Position numbers and translations under genes: made by a program. A stretch of DNA of 32,778 nucleotides from Acidithrix ferrooxidans. GTDB taxonomy: Bacteria; Actinomycetota; Acidimicrobiia; Acidimicrobiales; Acidimicrobiaceae. Every line of letters begins with the position of its first letter. The stretch's first letter is position 1. Positions 7,491 to 15,384 of this stretch are shown here, in pieces. Where the stretch lies: contig NZ_JXYS01000005.1 of the NCBI RefSeq assembly GCF_000949295.1, positions 1 to 32,778 of the forward strand, written 5' to 3'. The notes under the pieces are model-generated. The model did no database searches and was not told where the DNA came from. It was given only the letters and a program-made list of their open reading frames with translations.

Positions 7491-7526
7491 GCATCTACGG
7501 AAAGTTGAAAATCTTTCCGTAGATGC
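7491..7526. terminator. Strong hairpin after the aldo/keto reductase
   Basis: GCATCTACGGAAAG (7491-7504) pairs perfectly with CTTTCCGTAGATGC (7513-7526) around an 8-nt loop TTGAAAAT. It sits 6 bp past the stop of the minus-strand reductase, the usual place for a transcript-end structure. No U-tract follows on either strand, so it may stabilise mRNA 3' ends rather than act as a classical intrinsic terminator. Confidence 0.5.
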
Positions 7527-7531
7527 ATGTG

Positions 7532-8416
7532 TCAGATTAGCTCCAAGGTGCTCCCGTCAAAGAGTGGAGCCATTTCAAGGCTTCGGGCGTCAGCCTCGAT
7601 AGCAACTAGATCCAAATCTTTGGGTAGGTGGTTTGCAGCTTCAATGACCTTTGGTAGTAGCGAATAGTCACTAGATGTATTTAGAAAGAGGTTCGGCCTT
7701 GACAGGACAAATGCGACGGCTCTTTTGATTGCTCCATCATCTTTTATCGGCTCATACCAGCTAAAGCGTCGATCGGTGGTATTGTCGTCACTCCATCGGC
7801 GCCGAGCAATTGACTTGATCGTCTGTATTGCCACGTTCTTGTTCGTTGCGATCTCTATCAACTCTTCAACATCACTCTTATATTGAGGATTGGTTAGCAT
7901 CATGTAGTTGTAGGGAAAGAGAATGGAGTCATAGTCGTAGGCGCTTAGTGATCGAATATGCATGGAAGGGATTCGGGTTCCGTGACCGGTGACTCCAATA
8001 TACTTCACCAGTCCTTGTTGACGGGCATCCATCAACGCTTCAAGGGCGCCACCCTTGGAGTGCGCTATCTTCCACTCGTCTTCTTCTACCAAGTTGTGGA
8101 GTTGTATTAAGTCGATTTGATCGACGCCTAATCGAACTAAGGAGCGTTCAATGGATGCGCGCGCTCCATCACCGGTTCGATCGCCAGTCTTTGTGGCTAG
8201 AAAGAATTTGTTCCTGTGGTCTTTCATCCAGGGCGCAATTCGCTCTTCGGAGTTTCCATAAGATGACGCCGTATCGATGTGATTGATACCAGCTGCGAGG
8301 ATTACCTCCAGTGTCGCATCGGCGGTTGCCTGGGAGGATTCTCCCAATCCTGCCGCTCCGAAAATTACTCGGCTGGTCATATGTCCTGTTTTACCAAATT
8401 GAAGTTGAGGGATCAT
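7532..8416 (-). CDS. Aldo/keto reductase
   Basis: This 294-residue NAD(P)H-dependent oxidoreductase has a TIM-barrel fold. The catalytic tetrad is readable: D48 and Y53 in HIDTASSYG, K76 in FLATKTGDR, H107 in LIQLHNL. YIGVTGH marks the following strand. The C-terminal part is close to the subgroup acting on small aldehydes or sugars, but the substrate is not predictable. The C-terminal cofactor-phosphate motif is weak (ARRRWSDDNTTDRR), so the NADPH preference is uncertain. Length is within the family range. ATG 8416 is preceded by TAGGT close to the start. A later ATG (MTSRVIFG) would cut strand 1, so the longer form is preferred. It appears monocistronic, with a strong hairpin after the stop. 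Confidence 0.9.
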   Translation of the reverse strand: MIPQLQFGKTGHMTSRVIFGAAGLGESSQATADATLEVILAAGINHIDTASSYGNSEERIAPWMKDHRNKFFLATKTGDRTGDGARASIERSLVRLGVDQIDLIQLHNLVEEDEWKIAHSKGGALEALMDARQQGLVKYIGVTGHGTRIPSMHIRSLSAYDYDSILFPYNYMMLTNPQYKSDVEELIEIATNKNVAIQTIKSIARRRWSDDNTTDRRFSWYEPIKDDGAIKRAVAFVLSRPNLFLNTSSDYSLLPKVIEAANHLPKDLDLVAIEADARSLEMAPLFDGSTLELI

Positions 8417-9009
8417 TTACCTATTTTATGCAATCGTTCTCGGAAAGATGCATCTAAGGAGGTGTTTTGACGGCTGATTTTTCCATTGCGATCCTTGTCT
8501 GAACCTCTTTGGATTTCGATTTGATCATCTTGATCGAATGGTTAGCTAAAACGCTCCGAGAACCACCGCGTTATTGCCTTTAGGATAGTGGCTATTTTTG
8601 TGAGCGCTAACGTGAATGGCCCAATTGAGAGTTCGATGCCTTGGCCAATTGGCGCGGCCCAAGAGATGGCTACCATTTCATCGCTCTGTGAATTACAAGG
8701 TTGGTAAAGCTAAAAATTGTAGTTGACGATTAGTTCGGAATTGCCCTTTGGATGCGGTGTTGGTTAGGGTTTAGGTTTTAGCTAGTTTCACGTGATCGAT
8801 AGGTAGCATGATTAGGCCCTAGCGATCAGTTGATGCTCACTTGATTCAGATCTGATTATACCTCATGGTGACGCTTGGGATTTTTTTGAATTCCTCTGCT
8901 GGGCTGGTACCTTGTGTCGTGGCTTTCTTTGACTAGCACAATCTCGCCAAAACCCTATAGGCCATGTGTTGGGCATTGAACTGTTTATCAATCGTAAAGT
9001 GGGGCCACA
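8417..9009. other. Gene-free stretch between the reductase and sqr
   Basis: About 590 bp upstream of two divergent genes. I see only short frames without ribosome-binding sites or recognisable products, and several CCAATTGG-type short palindromes (for example near 8644). No tRNA or structured RNA is apparent. Confidence 0.4.
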
Positions 9010-9025
9010 ATACCCTATTGGGTAT
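9010..9025. promoter_or_regulatory. Palindromic operator upstream of sqr, CstR/CsoR-like
   Basis: ATACCC-TATT-GGGTAT is a 6+6 inverted repeat with a 4-nt centre, 128 bp before the sqr start. A possible -10 box TATGAT (9025-9030) overlaps its right end, so a bound repressor would block the promoter. Sites of the form ATACCC...GGGTAT are typical of CsoR-family persulfide sensors (CstR), which control sulfide-oxidation genes. The match to the downstream function is the main reason for the call. No regulator gene of this family is in the window. Confidence 0.55.
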
Positions 9026-9152
9026 ATGATTATGGTGATAAGGTTAGGTTTTAGAGTCCATTTCTGTCGCTTTGGCGAGATTTGGATTGGTTGTAGGAAT
9101 CATTATTTGATGGCCTCCCAAAAGGGTCACCATCTCTGAATGGAGTTAACTC

Positions 9153-10610
9153 ATGGCTAGAGTCGTGATTTTAGGAGCGGGCATCTCGGGTCATACGGCT
9201 GCTCTTTATCTACGTCGCTTTCTTGATACTAGTCACGAGGTGGTGGTGGTCTCTCCGAATTCAAATTGGAATTGGATCCCCTCCAACATCTGGGTTGGCG
9301 TCGGAAAGATGACGACGAACCAGGTTACCTTTCCCCTTGCGCCCATCTATCGTCGTAAGGGCATCGACTTTCGCCAAGCCCTTGCGGTTGGCCTCTATCC
9401 AGAAGGCGACCAAACTTCGACTAAGCCTTTTGTGGAGATCATACACACCTCCAAGAAAGAGAAGGACAGGCTGGAGAGATTGCACTATGACTATCTCATA
9501 AATGCCACCGGTCCTAAGTTGAACTTCGCGGCTACTCCGGGTCTTGGTCCTGATGCCAATACTCTTTCGGTTTGTACCCCAGACCATGCCACTAAGACCG
9601 CTGGTGAATTTGAAAAGATCATAGAAGCGCTCGCTAAAGGTGATCCAAAGACACTGGTGATTGGTGTCGGCCACGGAACCTGCACATGCGAAGGTGCCGC
9701 ATTTGAATACGCATTCAATGTGGAACATGAACTACGCAACAGGGGTGTTAGAGAACTCGCTACGGTTATCTATTTGACAAATGAATTTGAGCTAGGTGAC
9801 TTTGGTGTTGGGGGGATGGAATTTGTCCAAAATGGATTTGTGACCACCTCAAAGATGTGGACTGAGTCACTTTTTCGTGAGCGAGGTGTGAAGGCGATCC
9901 TCGGAGCACACGTTGAGCGAGTCGACGAAGGGGTGCTCACCTATGAGCAGCTAGATGGTTCAAAACTAACACTATCTTTTGATTTTGCAATGCTGCTTCC
10001 ACCCTTTAGAGGTGTGGACCTAAGGGCATATGACCAAGGTGGAGATGACATTACCTCTGAGATATTTGCACCCAATGGCTTTATGAAGGTGGATGCTGAC
10101 TACACCTCTAGAACATTCGATGATTGGAATGCTTCGGATTGGCCTAGCACCTATCAGTCCCAAAAGTACGAGAACGTCTTTGGCGTTGGTATTGCTTTTG
10201 CACCGCCACATCCCATCTCTCGACCAAGGACTAGTCCCAACGGAACAGTGATCTCACCTGCTCCTCCGAGAACTGGCATGCCATCTGGCGTAATGGGAAA
10301 GACCGTGGCCAGGTCGATCGCCGATCGAATTAATCTTGGAGAAGATGCCCCATTGCATGAGGCATCAATGGCCAAGATGGGTGCTGCCTGCATCGCCTCT
10401 GCTGGGGCTGGAATTAAAAATGGAACTGCTGCAGCGATGACAATGTACCCAGTTGTACCAGATTACCAGCGTTTTCCCGGCTCCGGTCGAGACTCTAAAG
10501 GGACATCTGGCGAGATCGGCTTAGGCGGACACTGGGTGAAATTGATGCTTCACTATCTCTTTATCTACAAGGCAAAAGCCCTTCCAGGATGGTATCGAAT
10601 CCCCGAGTAG
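9153..10610 (+). CDS. sqr: Sulfide:quinone oxidoreductase (FAD-dependent)
   Basis: The 485-residue flavoprotein starts with the FAD-binding motif VVILGAGISGHTAAL (residues 4-18) and has the second dinucleotide-type region near 165-185. SQR cysteines are in place: C141 in SVCTPDHA (equivalent to C128 of the Acidithiobacillus enzyme, whose motif is SICTIDHA), C179 in GTCTCEGAAFEYAF (equivalent to C160), and C413 in MGAACIASAG (likely the third redox cysteine). SQR oxidises sulfide to polysulfide or persulfide and reduces quinone at the membrane surface. The C-terminus (GGHWVKLMLHYLFIYKAKAL) is amphipathic, as expected for membrane attachment. The protein is about 50 residues longer than usual, mainly from an insert around 330-385. 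ATG 9153 follows GGAG (9142-9145) at 7 nt. A palindromic operator lies upstream and a small gene follows. Confidence 0.88.
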   Translation: MARVVILGAGISGHTAALYLRRFLDTSHEVVVVSPNSNWNWIPSNIWVGVGKMTTNQVTFPLAPIYRRKGIDFRQALAVGLYPEGDQTSTKPFVEIIHTSKKEKDRLERLHYDYLINATGPKLNFAATPGLGPDANTLSVCTPDHATKTAGEFEKIIEALAKGDPKTLVIGVGHGTCTCEGAAFEYAFNVEHELRNRGVRELATVIYLTNEFELGDFGVGGMEFVQNGFVTTSKMWTESLFRERGVKAILGAHVERVDEGVLTYEQLDGSKLTLSFDFAMLLPPFRGVDLRAYDQGGDDITSEIFAPNGFMKVDADYTSRTFDDWNASDWPSTYQSQKYENVFGVGIAFAPPHPISRPRTSPNGTVISPAPPRTGMPSGVMGKTVARSIADRINLGEDAPLHEASMAKMGAACIASAGAGIKNGTAAAMTMYPVVPDYQRFPGSGRDSKGTSGEIGLGGHWVKLMLHYLFIYKAKALPGWYRIPE

Positions 10611-10658
10611 GCCAATTTAGGTTTAAGCTCTATGAATTGAAAGGTCCAATGAAGAATT

Positions 10659-10805
10659 ATGGATAATGGAAACCAAGATATTTCTCGTGCACCACTGCCT
10701 ACGGCCAGAACGATTGCACTGAGGACCAATCTTTTCTACCAAGGCTGGCGATTTGTGGTCTTTAATCTCAAAATGTTAGGAATGGTCCTCAAGGGTCATG
10801 ATTGA
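10659..10805 (+). CDS. 48-residue small protein in the sqr operon
   Basis: A 48-codon frame starts 48 bp after the sqr stop, with ATG at 10659 preceded by GAAG and, further up, GAAAGGT (10639-10645). The product begins MDNGNQDISRAPLPTARTIA and ends WRFVVFNLKMLGMVLKGHD. The N-terminal half is polar. The C-terminal half (about residues 24-46) is a hydrophobic helix with flanking basic residues, suited to lying on or in the membrane. Its same-strand place right behind sqr suggests co-transcription and a role with the membrane-bound oxidoreductase, for example as an anchor or quinone-site partner. This is inferred from context only. I do not recognise a named family. The gene is too short for many gene finders. 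Confidence 0.6.
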   Translation: MDNGNQDISRAPLPTARTIALRTNLFYQGWRFVVFNLKMLGMVLKGHD

Positions 10806-10927
10806 TTTGATTGGGCGCGCTGAGGTGGTCTCGAGCGAATGAATCCGATAGCTAGCTTATCTGCTACAGATAATTTGGTATTAGAAATTCAAATCTTATC
10901 AAGGTCAATCAAATCGATCTTCCGCAG

Positions 10928-10981
10928 GGTTGACGACCATGAACTGTCTAACAGGGTCGTCAACCATCATCCGACTTTTTT
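10928..10981 (+). terminator. Inverted repeat with downstream T-run, possible sqr operon terminator
   Basis: GGTTGACGACC (10928-10938) and GGTCGTCAACC (10955-10965) are perfect complements around a 16-nt loop. A T6 run begins about 10 nt further on (10976-10981). The gap between stem and T-run is longer than in standard terminators, but no gene follows for 1.1 kb, so an end of transcription here is plausible. Confidence 0.4.
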
Positions 10982-12075
10982 GGGTGAGCCATGGAAGTGT
11001 CTTCGTAGCCATTTCCTAGCAAGGTGATTGGCACAGTATGGGTTGTTGTATCTTTTGACGCGGGGACAACCCAAGTGCTCTCGATAGGGGATGCTTAATT
11101 CAGAGAGAATGGGTCCCCTCCTAGTGGTTTGACAAATAGGCAAATAAAGGTCTTAAAAGGTGCTCGGGCGGATTTTTGAGATAAAACACTTTTGAGTTCG
11201 AATTGTCGTTTTTGGTGTGTGGATTTCGTTCGCTTGAGTATGCGATCATTTTGCTGACTAGAACTTTTTGCTACCTTGCCTTTGGTTTTTGAAAGATCCA
11301 ATGGGATGGGTTCAATGTTGGAACTTATTTTTGGTTTGGATCCAACCTGTGGTTAGATTGCTTTGATCAATTTTTGTTCATTTTAAGAGTGACAAGTTGC
11401 GGAGGTCTCCTTGACTTTAGGTCGAGCCGAGTTTCAACCCTAGAAAGTAAAACTGTGGGCAAATCTGTAATTAGTGAAGATCTTGCCGATGCTTTTAGAA
11501 TGTTGGCCCTTAGGCGTCAGATGTATGTCCCTTTGATGAAGCTTTGGGATCAGCAACTGCGAACGATTTGAAATGATTATTTGGATAAATGGATTAAGCA
11601 GCGTGGATTCAACTTATTTTGCCCTTATGATCTGGACTCTTCCAGGCACTCTTAATGGGTTGAGTCCAAATTCAATGCGCAAGAATCTATGGTTAGCCCC
11701 AATGACACATTGATTAAAAGTTGTCGCCATCTCTCTAATTTCATAGTTAGTCGCCAGATCAGATTATGTTCCTGACAATGGTTCCATAAGGAGCTATGTT
11801 GATGGTCACATATTTGCGAGGGGCTCATTTGAAAAGAGCTCGTTGTTCAGGGCTCTAATGACGCCATGGATATTCCGTAGAAGTATCTCAAATATCTGAT
11901 CTTTGAATGGCCTAACAAGCAAGTTTTTGGCCTTAGATAAGAAATTCATTTCTAGTGAAGTGCTATGGTTTTGGAATAGGATTTAGGGCAAGAAGTCACA
12001 AATTGTAGAGTTTGTACTCAAGGTCACCAAGGCGTGTTCCTTTTTGTCTCTGGTTGACATCATAAGGTAGCGATT
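10982..12075. other. 1.1-kb region without an intact gene; one broken frame
   Basis: The only stretch with protein-like character is 11374-11655 (+), a frame broken by a TGA at 11569-11571. Before the stop it encodes SEDLADAFRMLALRRQMYVP; after it, in the same frame, NDYLDKWIKQRGFNLFCPYD. Both pieces are helical and charged, which suggests a decayed small gene of unknown kind. The rest shows no recognisable product, RNA gene or repeat. The segment just before 12076 carries the ribosome-binding site of the next gene (AAGGTAG, 12064-12070). Confidence 0.35.
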
Positions 12076-15000
12076 ATGTTTAGGTTGACTCCCAACCGTT
12101 GGTGCAATCGACGGATAGCTCTACGTTGGCTGTTGTGTCTTTGCGTCATAGTGCTCTCAATAGGGCAATTTGGGAGTCAGCCAGTCGAAGGCCAAGGTTC
12201 CAACCTGTACGTATCTGGATCTGGAAGCGACATTTCTAACAACTGCCAAAATATCTCCTCACCTTGTAAAACACTTCAATATGCCCTCAGTCAGGCGGCA
12301 AGCGGTGACACGATTGACGTCTATGGAATCGTCTTTGCAAATGCGATTAAGGGCCAAGGTGCAACCATTCCTACGTCCATTGCCTCGCTTCAAATTGTGG
12401 GTACCAACGGTAATTCGACAGTGGAAGATCTTCAACCCACAAGCCTTACTACGATAAATCCGAGTGGTGGATCGGTTATCACAATACCTCAAGCTGGACA
12501 GCAAATTTCGATCACCGATTTGACCCTATCGGATGGAGATAATCAATATGGTGGAGGTATCTACGCTCAAAGCGGGACTACAACGATGCTCAATGGCGTC
12601 AAAGTGTATACCAACTTCTCCACTAATGGCGGTGGTATTTACAATGCGGGCACTATGTCGATAATTGATTCTTCCATTGTGAACAATTTTGCGGGCAATA
12701 TAGGAGTATTTTGTCTCGTCTCCTCACCAAACCAGTGCGTTCAATTAGCCTACGGCGGCGGTATATATAATGGTGGTCGGCTGACCATTAGCCGCTCATT
12801 GATTAGTCAAAATGTGATCGATGAAAGTTTGAGTAGTTATTCCTCTTCCCCCGCTAACTACTACGGCGGCGGTATATTTAATGGTGGTCGGCTTGATATG
12901 TTCGAGTCGTCAGTGACTCACAACTCTATCTCGGGAAGTGCTGGAAATGGGCAAACGATCTCTGGAACTATAACCGACGGTGGCGGAATCTTCAACATCA
13001 GTCAGAATTCGGCCGTTATTGCTTCGACGATTGCCGGAAACCACGTTTCTGTCAATGGTGGTGGTGCCGGAATCGGTTTCGGTCCTGGAGTACTTGCCCC
13101 TTCGTTGCTTAAGATGAGCGGCTCGTACGTGGTAGATAATACGGATCGTAATACTACGGATTTGATAAACAACTGTAGCCTCGGGCAAGCTACAGGGACT
13201 ATTTTTTCATTGGGTTATAATGTCTCTGATTCATCTGAATGCAATTTCACTGCTTCTGGCGATGTTAGTAACGTTAAAGTGACGCCAGTTGACGCACATT
13301 CCAGATACTTTGTGCCTACTAGTGGATCGATAGGGTTAGAGATGGTTCCCTACGATACCGTTATCTCCTATAGTGCCTCGGAGCCGAACTTTACCCTTTG
13401 TCCAACGACCGACGAGCTTGGCAACTCTCGGCCTTCTAGTGCAAGTGGATATTGCGACGTTGGAGCCATTGAGATAAATTACGGTCAAAGCGTAGTTTCG
13501 CCGTCGATAACCTCCGCTGCCACCACTACTTTTATCGATGGGGAGCAGGGATCTTTCACCTTCACATCTACTGGAACACCAAAAATCACCTATAACACCA
13601 CCACGACATTGCCATCGGGGATTACCCTGTCTCCTGAGGGGGTATTGTCAGGCGTTTCCTCTGGAGGTGGACCCTATTCCTTCAGGGTAACTGCTAAAAA
13701 CTATGGTGGGCACTCAAGCCAAAATTTCACAATTAATTTTCAAAAGGCGACTTCTTCGATCACCCTGAAAGCATCGCCATCACCATCTGAAGCAGGTGTG
13801 TCTACCAAGGTATCGGTGGCGGTTGAAGATGCAAATGGTACTAATAAATATCCGCCTACGGGCAGCGTTGAAATATCTACTCCTGGAGTGAATCAACCTT
13901 TGTGCGATATTCAACTTAGTGACCTGTCCATCCTGAATATCCCGAGCGCCATCTCCGTAGGGAGTTGTAATATCGAATCGCCCGTATTGAGATCAATGGA
14001 TCTCATTGCAAGTTATCCCGGAGATGGTAACTATTTGCAAGCGAAAGCGACTACCTCCCTTACTATTAATGGAGCTATAACCATTTCTTCCAAGCCTGCA
14101 AATTCGTCGATTTTAGTTGGCTCTAACTATAGCTACACCCCAACGATTAGTGGCGGTGTGGGTGCTGATATTTTCAGTGAAAGCGGCCACTTGCCACCGG
14201 GACTGAACTTTGATAGTTCAGTTGGATCGCTGAGTGGGAGGGCGACTGCCGCGGGTACCTACAGCTATTGGGTGAGCGTAAAGGATTCATTGGGCGCTAG
14301 CGCCACTCAAAACGAATCTATAACCGTCGATAGGTCGAATAGCTCCCTTTTGCTTTCCATATCTCCAACCGTGGCGCTGGCTGGCTCCTCGGTCGTGTTG
14401 TCTGCAACTATCAATGGCTTCAATCCAACTGGTTATGTGAATTTTTTCGATGAAAACGGCCCGCTATGTTCATCGCTTATCTCTGGGAACGCAGCTTCAT
14501 GCAGGATAACCCTTGACAGCGGTAATTACAGTCTTTATGCTAGCTATAGCGGCGATGGCAACAATTATGGCCAAGTGTCAGGCTCCGCATCCTTGAATCT
14601 CCTACCAACTTTGGCTCTATCTGCATCGAATCCACATGATGCAACCGTCGGAAATTATTACAATACTTCTTTAAATGCCCAGGGTGGAACTCCCCCTTAT
14701 GAATGGACCTTGGTCTCTGGAAATCTTCCAAATGGACTGTCCTTGTCAACCTCAGGTGTTTTGTATGGAACACCAACAGCACAAGGGTCATTTACCTTTA
14801 GGGTGTTGGACTCTGACTCAGGTCTTTTGTTACATCAACAATCGATCGCTACTTATACCTTGATTGTCGTAGCCCATCCCGCGACTTCTTCTGGAAGCAC
14901 TTCACCAAGTGGGACTAGTAATCCTCAACCATCGACCCAGGGTTCTCCAACGACACCAAGTGGGACTAGTAATCCTCAACCATCGACCCAGGGTTCTCCA

Positions 15001-15384
15001 ACGACACCAAGTGGGACTAGTAATCCTCAACCATCGACCCAGGGTTCTCCAACGACACCAAGTGACTTCAATCTGACCCTGACGAATCCGGGGAGCCAAG
15101 CAAGCAATATTCAGGGATCTCAACTGATTGAGTCGCCGTCGTCTTCTAGTGGTTTCACCTCTCCAACCAAGCCCACATTAATGGAGCCAATTCCGCCATC
15201 CAACACCATAAACGTTACTAACTCCAATGCCCCAAGTGGCTCTTCTTCGCGTAGCCATAGTGGAACTACTAGACCAGATCGCTTTTTTATTACTTTCACT
15301 GAACTTTTATTTTTAGTATTTGCTTTAATGGTGTTGATTGGGTGGATCATTTATCGATCACAACCCAAGAGTCGACCTAGCTGA
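12076..15384 (+). CDS. Large surface-anchored beta-helix / Ig-like repeat protein
   Basis: The 1102-residue exported protein starts with a signal peptide (basic MFRLTPNRWCNRRIALRW, then a hydrophobic core to about residue 34). Residues 44-70 read LYVSGSGSDISNNCQ...PCKTLQYAL, the opening typical of pectate-lyase-like right-handed beta-helices. GGGIYNGG-type rungs follow to about 345, and CDVGAIEI near 460 closes a choice-of-anchor-Q-type domain. Then three He_PIG/putative-Ig domains (about 475-560, 665-755, 850-935; signatures LPSGITLSPEGVLSG, LPPGLNFDSS, LPNGLSLSTSGVLYGTP) alternate with two Big_3-like domains (SSITLKASPSPSEAG and SLLLSISPTVALAGS). A Ser/Thr/Pro linker with three 17-residue repeats leads to one membrane helix (about 1071-1093) and a short basic tail. 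Likely a cell-surface adhesion or matrix protein; no catalytic residues can be assigned. AAGGTAG precedes the ATG. Confidence 0.85.
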   Translation: MFRLTPNRWCNRRIALRWLLCLCVIVLSIGQFGSQPVEGQGSNLYVSGSGSDISNNCQNISSPCKTLQYALSQAASGDTIDVYGIVFANAIKGQGATIPTSIASLQIVGTNGNSTVEDLQPTSLTTINPSGGSVITIPQAGQQISITDLTLSDGDNQYGGGIYAQSGTTTMLNGVKVYTNFSTNGGGIYNAGTMSIIDSSIVNNFAGNIGVFCLVSSPNQCVQLAYGGGIYNGGRLTISRSLISQNVIDESLSSYSSSPANYYGGGIFNGGRLDMFESSVTHNSISGSAGNGQTISGTITDGGGIFNISQNSAVIASTIAGNHVSVNGGGAGIGFGPGVLAPSLLKMSGSYVVDNTDRNTTDLINNCSLGQATGTIFSLGYNVSDSSECNFTASGDVSNVKVTPVDAHSRYFVPTSGSIGLEMVPYDTVISYSASEPNFTLCPTTDELGNSRPSSASGYCDVGAIEINYGQSVVSPSITSAATTTFIDGEQGSFTFTSTGTPKITYNTTTTLPSGITLSPEGVLSGVSSGGGPYSFRVTAKNYGGHSSQNFTINFQKATSSITLKASPSPSEAGVSTKVSVAVEDANGTNKYPPTGSVEISTPGVNQPLCDIQLSDLSILNIPSAISVGSCNIESPVLRSMDLIASYPGDGNYLQAKATTSLTINGAITISSKPANSSILVGSNYSYTPTISGGVGADIFSESGHLPPGLNFDSSVGSLSGRATAAGTYSYWVSVKDSLGASATQNESITVDRSNSSLLLSISPTVALAGSSVVLSATINGFNPTGYVNFFDENGPLCSSLISGNAASCRITLDSGNYSLYASYSGDGNNYGQVSGSASLNLLPTLALSASNPHDATVGNYYNTSLNAQGGTPPYEWTLVSGNLPNGLSLSTSGVLYGTPTAQGSFTFRVLDSDSGLLLHQQSIATYTLIVVAHPATSSGSTSPSGTSNPQPSTQGSPTTPSGTSNPQPSTQGSPTTPSGTSNPQPSTQGSPTTPSDFNLTLTNPGSQASNIQGSQLIESPSSSSGFTSPTKPTLMEPIPPSNTINVTNSNAPSGSSSRSHSGTTRPDRFFITFTELLFLVFALMVLIGWIIYRSQPKSRPS
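14908..15064 (+). repeat. 51-bp in-frame tandem repeat, 3 copies
   Basis: Three identical 51-bp units (14908-14958, 14959-15009, 15010-15060) plus AGTG of a fourth encode SGTSNPQPSTQGSPTTP three times in the wall-spanning linker of the surface protein. The DNA copies are identical even at synonymous positions, so the expansion is recent or kept homogeneous. As 51 is a multiple of three, changes in copy number alter only linker length. Confidence 0.95.

Follow-up and report, generated by a model that had tools for sequence, protein, structure and literature searches.

We find that the 48-codon frame directly behind sqr, the gene of a sulfide:quinone oxidoreductase (SQR), is almost certainly a real and conserved gene, judging from comparison with its relatives, and that its product is probably a dedicated accessory subunit of a single SQR clade, with a helix that would lie at the membrane-facing C-terminal end of the enzyme. 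The window, i.e., the whole stretch of DNA analysed, comprises 32,778 nucleotides, and its relevant features are listed in Table 1. The first-pass annotation of the window had already taken the short frame for a gene and for a small component tied to the window SQR. Both proposals have held up: the first through a homologue in all 63 same-clade SQR loci and through purifying selection, the second through the linkage in 63 of 63. The gene had also been presented as overlooked; it is indeed unnamed, but three plasmid records already annotate a homologue as 'hypothetical protein'.

Table 1. Features of sqr and of the small gene behind it (positions are those of the window)
Feature	Position	Strand	Basis
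sqr, sulfide:quinone oxidoreductase-like flavoprotein, 485 aa	9153..10610	+	PF07992, PDB sequence matches, cysteine motifs, fold
AAAGG, weak Shine-Dalgarno-like site, candidate	10640..10644	+	14 nt before the small-gene ATG
48-codon small gene, conserved SQR partner	10659..10805	+	homologues behind same-clade SQRs, purifying selection, alignments A1 and A5
APLPT motif, codons 11-15	10689..10703	+	family alignment
C-terminal helix, codons 25-45	10731..10793	+	invariant Q28; near-invariant R31, F32 and N36

Read from the window sequence, the frame extends from the ATG at 10659 to a TGA at 10803-10805 on the forward strand and encodes the 48 residues MDNGNQDISRAPLPTARTIALRTNLFYQGWRFVVFNLKMLGMVLKGHD. 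A gap of 48 nt separates its ATG from the stop codon of sqr. In several relatives (e.g., L002-L005, L007 and L008), GGAG-type sites are found approximately 6-8 nt 5' of the small gene. A scan of positions 8400-11200 for promoters and terminators returned one promoter-like and three terminator-like sites, which is no excess over shuffled sequences. Further downstream (12076-15384, forward strand) there is a frame of 1102 aa that starts with a signal-like segment, includes a repeated TPSGTSNPQPSTQGSP tract and has a hydrophobic segment at its C-terminus; its product resembles a surface protein.

Length alone is no proof of a small gene here, as chance ORFs of such size are common in the region (68 ORFs of at least 30 aa in the ORF list overlap positions 7500-14500), and comparison was thus needed. 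While this abundance is what would be expected if the frame were a chance ORF in the non-coding DNA behind sqr, such an explanation is contradicted by the conservation of the small gene across phyla, by its constant position and by the purifying selection acting on it, and we consider its probability negligible.

The main evidence comes from the linkage between the small gene and one type of SQR. A homologue of the small gene is located directly downstream, on the same strand, of each of the 63 SQRs with 44-100% identity to the window SQR and an intact 3' end, whereas none of the 25 SQR-like enzymes with 27-33% identity has one. At least 200 nt of downstream sequence are available for 24 of these 25 non-carriers, the exception (L065) having only 60 nt and a shortened SQR. 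A midpoint-rooted tree, which comprises 62 carriers and the 25 non-carriers and omits L064, a 3' fragment of an SQR, unites the carriers in one clade (support 0.997). No same-clade SQR without the small gene was found among the 63 loci with a readable 3' end, of which L078 is the least certain positive (44% identity, E 0.0013). Besides, three further genomes with a frameshifted sqr also carry the small gene and stand outside this count. Taken as genomic evidence, this strongly supports a dedicated partnership of the small gene with this SQR clade, which we regard as very likely.

These counts depend on how the loci were collected. The sample covers the phylum of the window, a single genus and two families of actinobacteria, and, for other phyla, three plasmid records. 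The loci were searched with SQR queries to reduce circularity (in the relatives, the phylum, the order, the genus Cryobacterium, the families of Tetrasphaera and Marmoricola, and the plasmids), and 41 of the 63 positives were reached only by an SQR-containing query; the other 22 (14 relatives, G001, G123, three actinobacteria and three plasmids) also surfaced in the search with the small protein. Cryobacterium and the two families were chosen for earlier small-protein hits there, the query used for Cryobacterium is a natural fusion and hence includes the small protein (12 loci), and the scoring profile A1 (17 rows) was built partly from genomes that are counted. Two loci were set aside as not judgeable, their SQR being cut by the contig end (L063 and L081), together with a duplicate (L120) and with L117, L118, L119, L123 and L124, which represent the three genomes with a frameshifted SQR (L123 and L124 are second views of L118 and L117, respectively). 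Loci known only via the small protein were excluded, among them L032, L034, L037 and L038, all four with an adjoining SQR. An SQR-like match occurred in 34 plasmid records; those examined were the three with identities above 50% and two from among the other 31.

Searching 60 relatives with the small protein gave matches at E < 1e-5 in 14 genomes, and in every one of these the match lies immediately behind an SQR homologue and shares its strand. A contig scan added a Marmoricola MAG, Tetrasphaera australiensis and Cryobacterium shii (all Actinomycetota), each with the small gene behind an SQR, and the plasmid carriers belong to Sulfurovum mangrovi (Campylobacterota), Thiodictyon syntrophicum (Gammaproteobacteria) and Marivivens (Alphaproteobacteria). 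In the phylum search, four weak profile hits (E 0.0018-0.0076) came from loci that lack an SQR and were dismissed as chance matches. The hits above E 0.005 among the 60 relatives were dismissed for the same reason, with the exception of L019, a divergent member. Against the subunit reading speaks the occurrence of a helix homologue in L036, whose 2.5-kb locus contains no SQR.

This match in L036 is a good one to the C-terminal helix of the partner, PWQLWRFAVINLKMIAMI (E 1.1e-6). The frame with the helix ends at 1587 on the forward strand, and its start resembles that of prolipoprotein diacylglyceryl transferase; the locus may be a remnant, a rearrangement or a misassembly. In the genomes with a frameshifted SQR (L117/L124, L118/L123 and L119), the enzyme is broken by a frameshift or a gap near residues 282-333, and the small gene behind it stays readable. 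The broken SQRs may be assembly errors.

The substitution patterns are those of a protein-coding gene. In three groups of equal-length small genes, pS was higher than pN in 66 of 66, 55 of 55 and 3 of 3 pairs, these 124 pairs being non-independent as they share sequences. In the two large groups, the median dN/dS over unsaturated pairs was 0.18 (32 pairs) and 0.25 (49 pairs), with single pairs reaching up to 0.53 and 0.68; the third group had one unsaturated pair, at 0.06. The low dN/dS by which the first-pass annotation had proposed to check the gene was found, synonymous differences per site exceeding nonsynonymous ones in all 124 pairs, and on these codon comparisons the small gene is under purifying selection as a protein. 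The gene was to be given up if relatives had no counterpart behind sqr or had stops in the corresponding frame; instead, a counterpart was present in 63 of 63 loci and pS exceeded pN in every pair. In one Cryobacterium genome (L093), the homologue is split by a frameshift.

The alignments show an N-terminus of variable length, a common APLPT motif and a C-terminal helix that is kept, this one helix being the best-conserved part of the small protein. In the family alignment, Q28 is present in 44 of 44 rows, followed by F32 (43), R22 (41), N36 (40) and R31 (39). The APLPT motif is less strict (A11 in 35 of the 44 rows, P12 in 35, L13 in 28, P14 in 37 and T15 in 35), and basic residues recur at position 31 (43 rows), 38 (37), 41 (34) and 45 (30). 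Three loci from the genus of the window (L059, L060 and L061) have a diverged partner of 44 residues without APLPT and with the helix pattern Q..(R/K)F...N; as their SQRs still share 66-69% identity with that of the window, the partner changes faster than the enzyme.

A natural gene fusion also speaks for the partnership. In Cryobacterium shii there is no stop codon between the two genes, and the small protein continues the SQR in frame; the stop is kept in the other 11 of the 12 Cryobacterium genomes with a same-clade SQR. The fusion is seen in one of 12 genomes and retains a Shine-Dalgarno-like AGGAG before the internal ATG, thus we give it modest weight, and it may have arisen recently or stem from an error in the sequence. 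The small frame of the window is also in register with sqr, as are 15 of the 51 loci when the window and the natural fusion are counted, which would suit a small frame that is translated as a C-terminal extension of SQR by stop-codon readthrough rather than as a separate protein. However, the 36 of 51 loci that are out of register contradict such an extension, the distance between the two genes ranges from 2 to 127 nt, the small gene of several relatives has a start of its own behind a Shine-Dalgarno-like site, and the two frames of the window are separated by three in-frame stops, that of sqr included. We therefore judge readthrough highly improbable.

SQR is one of the main entries of sulfide electrons into respiration and also serves in sulfide detoxification. 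The upstream gene of the window is an SQR-fold enzyme, as judged from its sequence and predicted structure. It matches PF07992 above the cut-off (E 7.6e-10), and this match together with the model indicates the two-dinucleotide-binding flavoprotein fold of the SQR family. Its best PDB sequence matches are the SQRs of A. ferrooxidans and Aquifex, and the top SQR match of the modelled window pair is the A. ferrooxidans SQR structure (Z 39.8, rmsd 1.9, 399 residues). The motif SVCTPDHA, which includes C141, aligns with SICTVDHA of A. ferrooxidans SQR, and CTCEGAAFEY, which includes C179, aligns with ASCFGPAYEY; the two cysteines correspond to Cys128 and Cys160 of that enzyme, a numbering that fits the titles of the matched structure entries. 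Both of these reference cysteines are catalytic. C413 is nearly invariant in the clade of the window SQR and lies outside the stretch aligned with A. ferrooxidans SQR, where Cys356 is the third redox cysteine. One member of the clade, L116 (SQR at 1501-2952 and small gene at 1289-1405, both on the reverse strand), is without two nearly invariant cysteines, having CTGEG for CTCEG and APFVTS for AACIAS, and its partner is divergent and without the APLPT motif. The enzyme of L116 is possibly no longer a sulfide oxidiser.

With regard to SQR types, the type III selenoprotein subtype (NCBIfam NF049943) was rejected for the window SQR, which scored 41.6 bits against a curated cut-off of 525. Elimination from the published types suggests type IV for the Sulfurovum relative, as far as the types are given in the accessible part of PMC4584964. 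The named SqrD of Thiodictyon, as it appears in the accessible part of PMC5944118, is a different gene from the Thiodictyon plasmid relative found here.

The first-pass annotation had described the small protein as having a hydrophobic helix flanked by basic residues. The helix stands, but it is not plainly hydrophobic: the best 19-residue Kyte-Doolittle mean is 0.94, which is low for a membrane-spanning helix, K38 lies within it, and it looks amphipathic. The Sulfurovum member is more hydrophobic (2.06 over 19 residues), thus the membrane mode may vary among members. Q28, F32, F35, N36 and M39 form a conserved side of the helix (conservation moment p ~0.001, 20,000 position shuffles), and the basic positions 31, 38, 41 and 45 are located on another side. 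The hydrophobic moment is marginal, with p 0.05 or 0.17 depending on the range. We read the helix from these patterns as interfacial with one putative protein-binding face, and not as membrane-spanning.

Structure prediction, in which only 14 of 30 alignment rows were paired, gave a pLDDT of 87.5 and a pTM of 0.88 for the window pair, and 83.7 and 0.83 for the natural fusion. In both models the small protein consists of two short helices and one long helix, which is preceded by a disordered linker. The long helix corresponds to 527-547 in the window-pair model (residues 25-45 of the small protein), with a pLDDT of 80-84 in its core block, and to 522-541 in the fusion model, where the pLDDT falls from 79 to 62 (block 531-540) and then to below 50 (539-544).

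Most SQRs have two C-terminal amphipathic helices, type VI has one, and the C-terminal domain is linked to membrane and quinone binding, according to the accessible sections of PMC9666304. The window SQR has one C-terminal helix in the model (457-474), and its chain ends at 485. Two plasmid SQR-like non-carriers (L045 and L046) extend approximately 30 residues past the corresponding helix-like stretch, while 22 of the 25 non-carriers end approximately 10 residues after their single helix-like stretch and one is shortened. As these 22 are also short and yet have no partner, a missing second helix does not by itself explain the presence of the partner.

In the fusion model, 14 of 16 SQR entries align up to 538-544, the end of the small-protein helix, and the NDH-2, flavocytochrome c and FSP1 entries stop before this helix. 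In the window model, alignments reach into the small protein for only 6 of the 16 SQR entries, and in both models CoA-disulfide reductases, a persulfide reductase and an NADH oxidase align that far as well. The overlay is read from the first and last aligned residues only, and the fusion-model alignments end exactly where the pLDDT is low (539-544, below 50). When the C-terminal tails of L045 and L046 were compared with both small-protein profiles, they scored no better than shuffled tails. Docking of the small-protein helix on the C-terminal end of SQR is thus suggestive only in these models. The low-confidence helix end and the lack of detected sequence similarity to the second C-terminal helix lower our confidence, and a particular docking at the C-terminal membrane/quinone region together with a quinone role is an option that we entertain more than favor.

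Overall, we propose that the small protein binds SQR as a dedicated subunit, physical binding being quite probable. Its C-terminal helix would lie in the membrane surface with the basic residues towards the lipid headgroups, and the Q28/F32/N36 face would pack on the C-terminal membrane-facing region of SQR, near the site of electron transfer to quinone. The partner might in this way help to hold the monotopic SQR on the membrane or shape the quinone entrance, a role that would correspond to the job assigned to the SQR C-terminal helices in the literature.

Strict linkage and coding selection would fit equally well an assembly or stability factor that binds SQR transiently, e.g., for membrane delivery or FAD insertion, without belonging to the working enzyme, and the conserved APLPT motif and the basic stretch before the helix could then be a binding tail. 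On the other hand, an in-frame fusion would be easier to tolerate for a permanent partner, a weak argument from one genome, and we consider a transient factor unlikely, while giving it some credit. The helix also has, besides its conserved face, other faces free for lipid or a third protein, and the small protein could thus bridge SQR and a quinol oxidase or some other complex instead of serving the anchoring or quinone site of SQR itself. Nevertheless, no obviously respiratory third gene is common to the three annotated plasmid neighbourhoods, and we see a bridge as improbable.

The dedicated subunit remains our preferred reading. In its strongest form, the SQRs of this clade would be obligate two-gene enzymes, in which a protein of 40-70 residues with an invariant glutamine supplies in trans the membrane/quinone end that in most other SQRs takes the form of a second C-terminal helix; we hold this form to be rather doubtful. 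If it is true, SQR purified without its partner would be inactive or soluble.

The small protein does not belong to a described family as far as our searches reach. Among 44 members, no credible Pfam match was obtained (four stray families, best E 0.016, in one or two members each), and neither Pfam nor NCBIfam gave a credible match for the window protein; ten diverse members, i.e., the window protein and nine others, yielded stray hits only in these two databases (best E 0.056 and 0.15). A PDB sequence profile search with the small protein found no chain at E up to 10. No description of a small SQR partner was found in open-access full text, which omits most subscription-journal papers, and the accessible parts of PMC5944118, PMC9666304, PMC3368242, PMC5061849, PMC4584964 and PMC12345210 do not mention one. 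In the literature examined, as far as these partial texts go, the SQR is a monotopic flavoprotein, and no small subunit is described for it. A small subunit dedicated to an SQR would apparently be new. If the clade needs the microprotein, its SQR expressed alone in a foreign host would show misleading activities, part of the enzyme would be missed in genome annotation, and the pair would offer a small test case for how monotopic enzymes reach the membrane quinone.

Three known systems can be compared with this pair. Flavocytochrome c sulfide dehydrogenase is also a sulfide-oxidising flavoprotein of the same fold (matches 3vrd and 1fcd) with a partner subunit. This subunit is a c-type cytochrome, whereas the window small protein has no cysteine. 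A second comparison is with the second C-terminal helix of most SQRs (PMC9666304, in its accessible part), with which the small protein may, judging from the models, share the spatial position and the membrane/quinone job, but it is encoded by a separate gene. The third system is CydX, the 37-aa subunit of cytochrome bd oxidase (PMC4325964). As in the available portion of that account, we deal with a very small protein whose gene accompanies the gene(s) for a quinone-linked respiratory enzyme, whose sequence varies around a few highly conserved residues and which is in part unannotated; the small gene is likewise encoded and conserved alongside its enzyme gene, in 63 of 63 loci. The CydX family was absent among the Pfam matches of the 44 members, a search by which such short proteins can be missed. 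No sequence relation was thus seen by family search, and the resemblance would be one of analogy. In kind, CydX appears to be the closest counterpart of the small protein, with the difference that the partner here is an SQR-fold flavoprotein.
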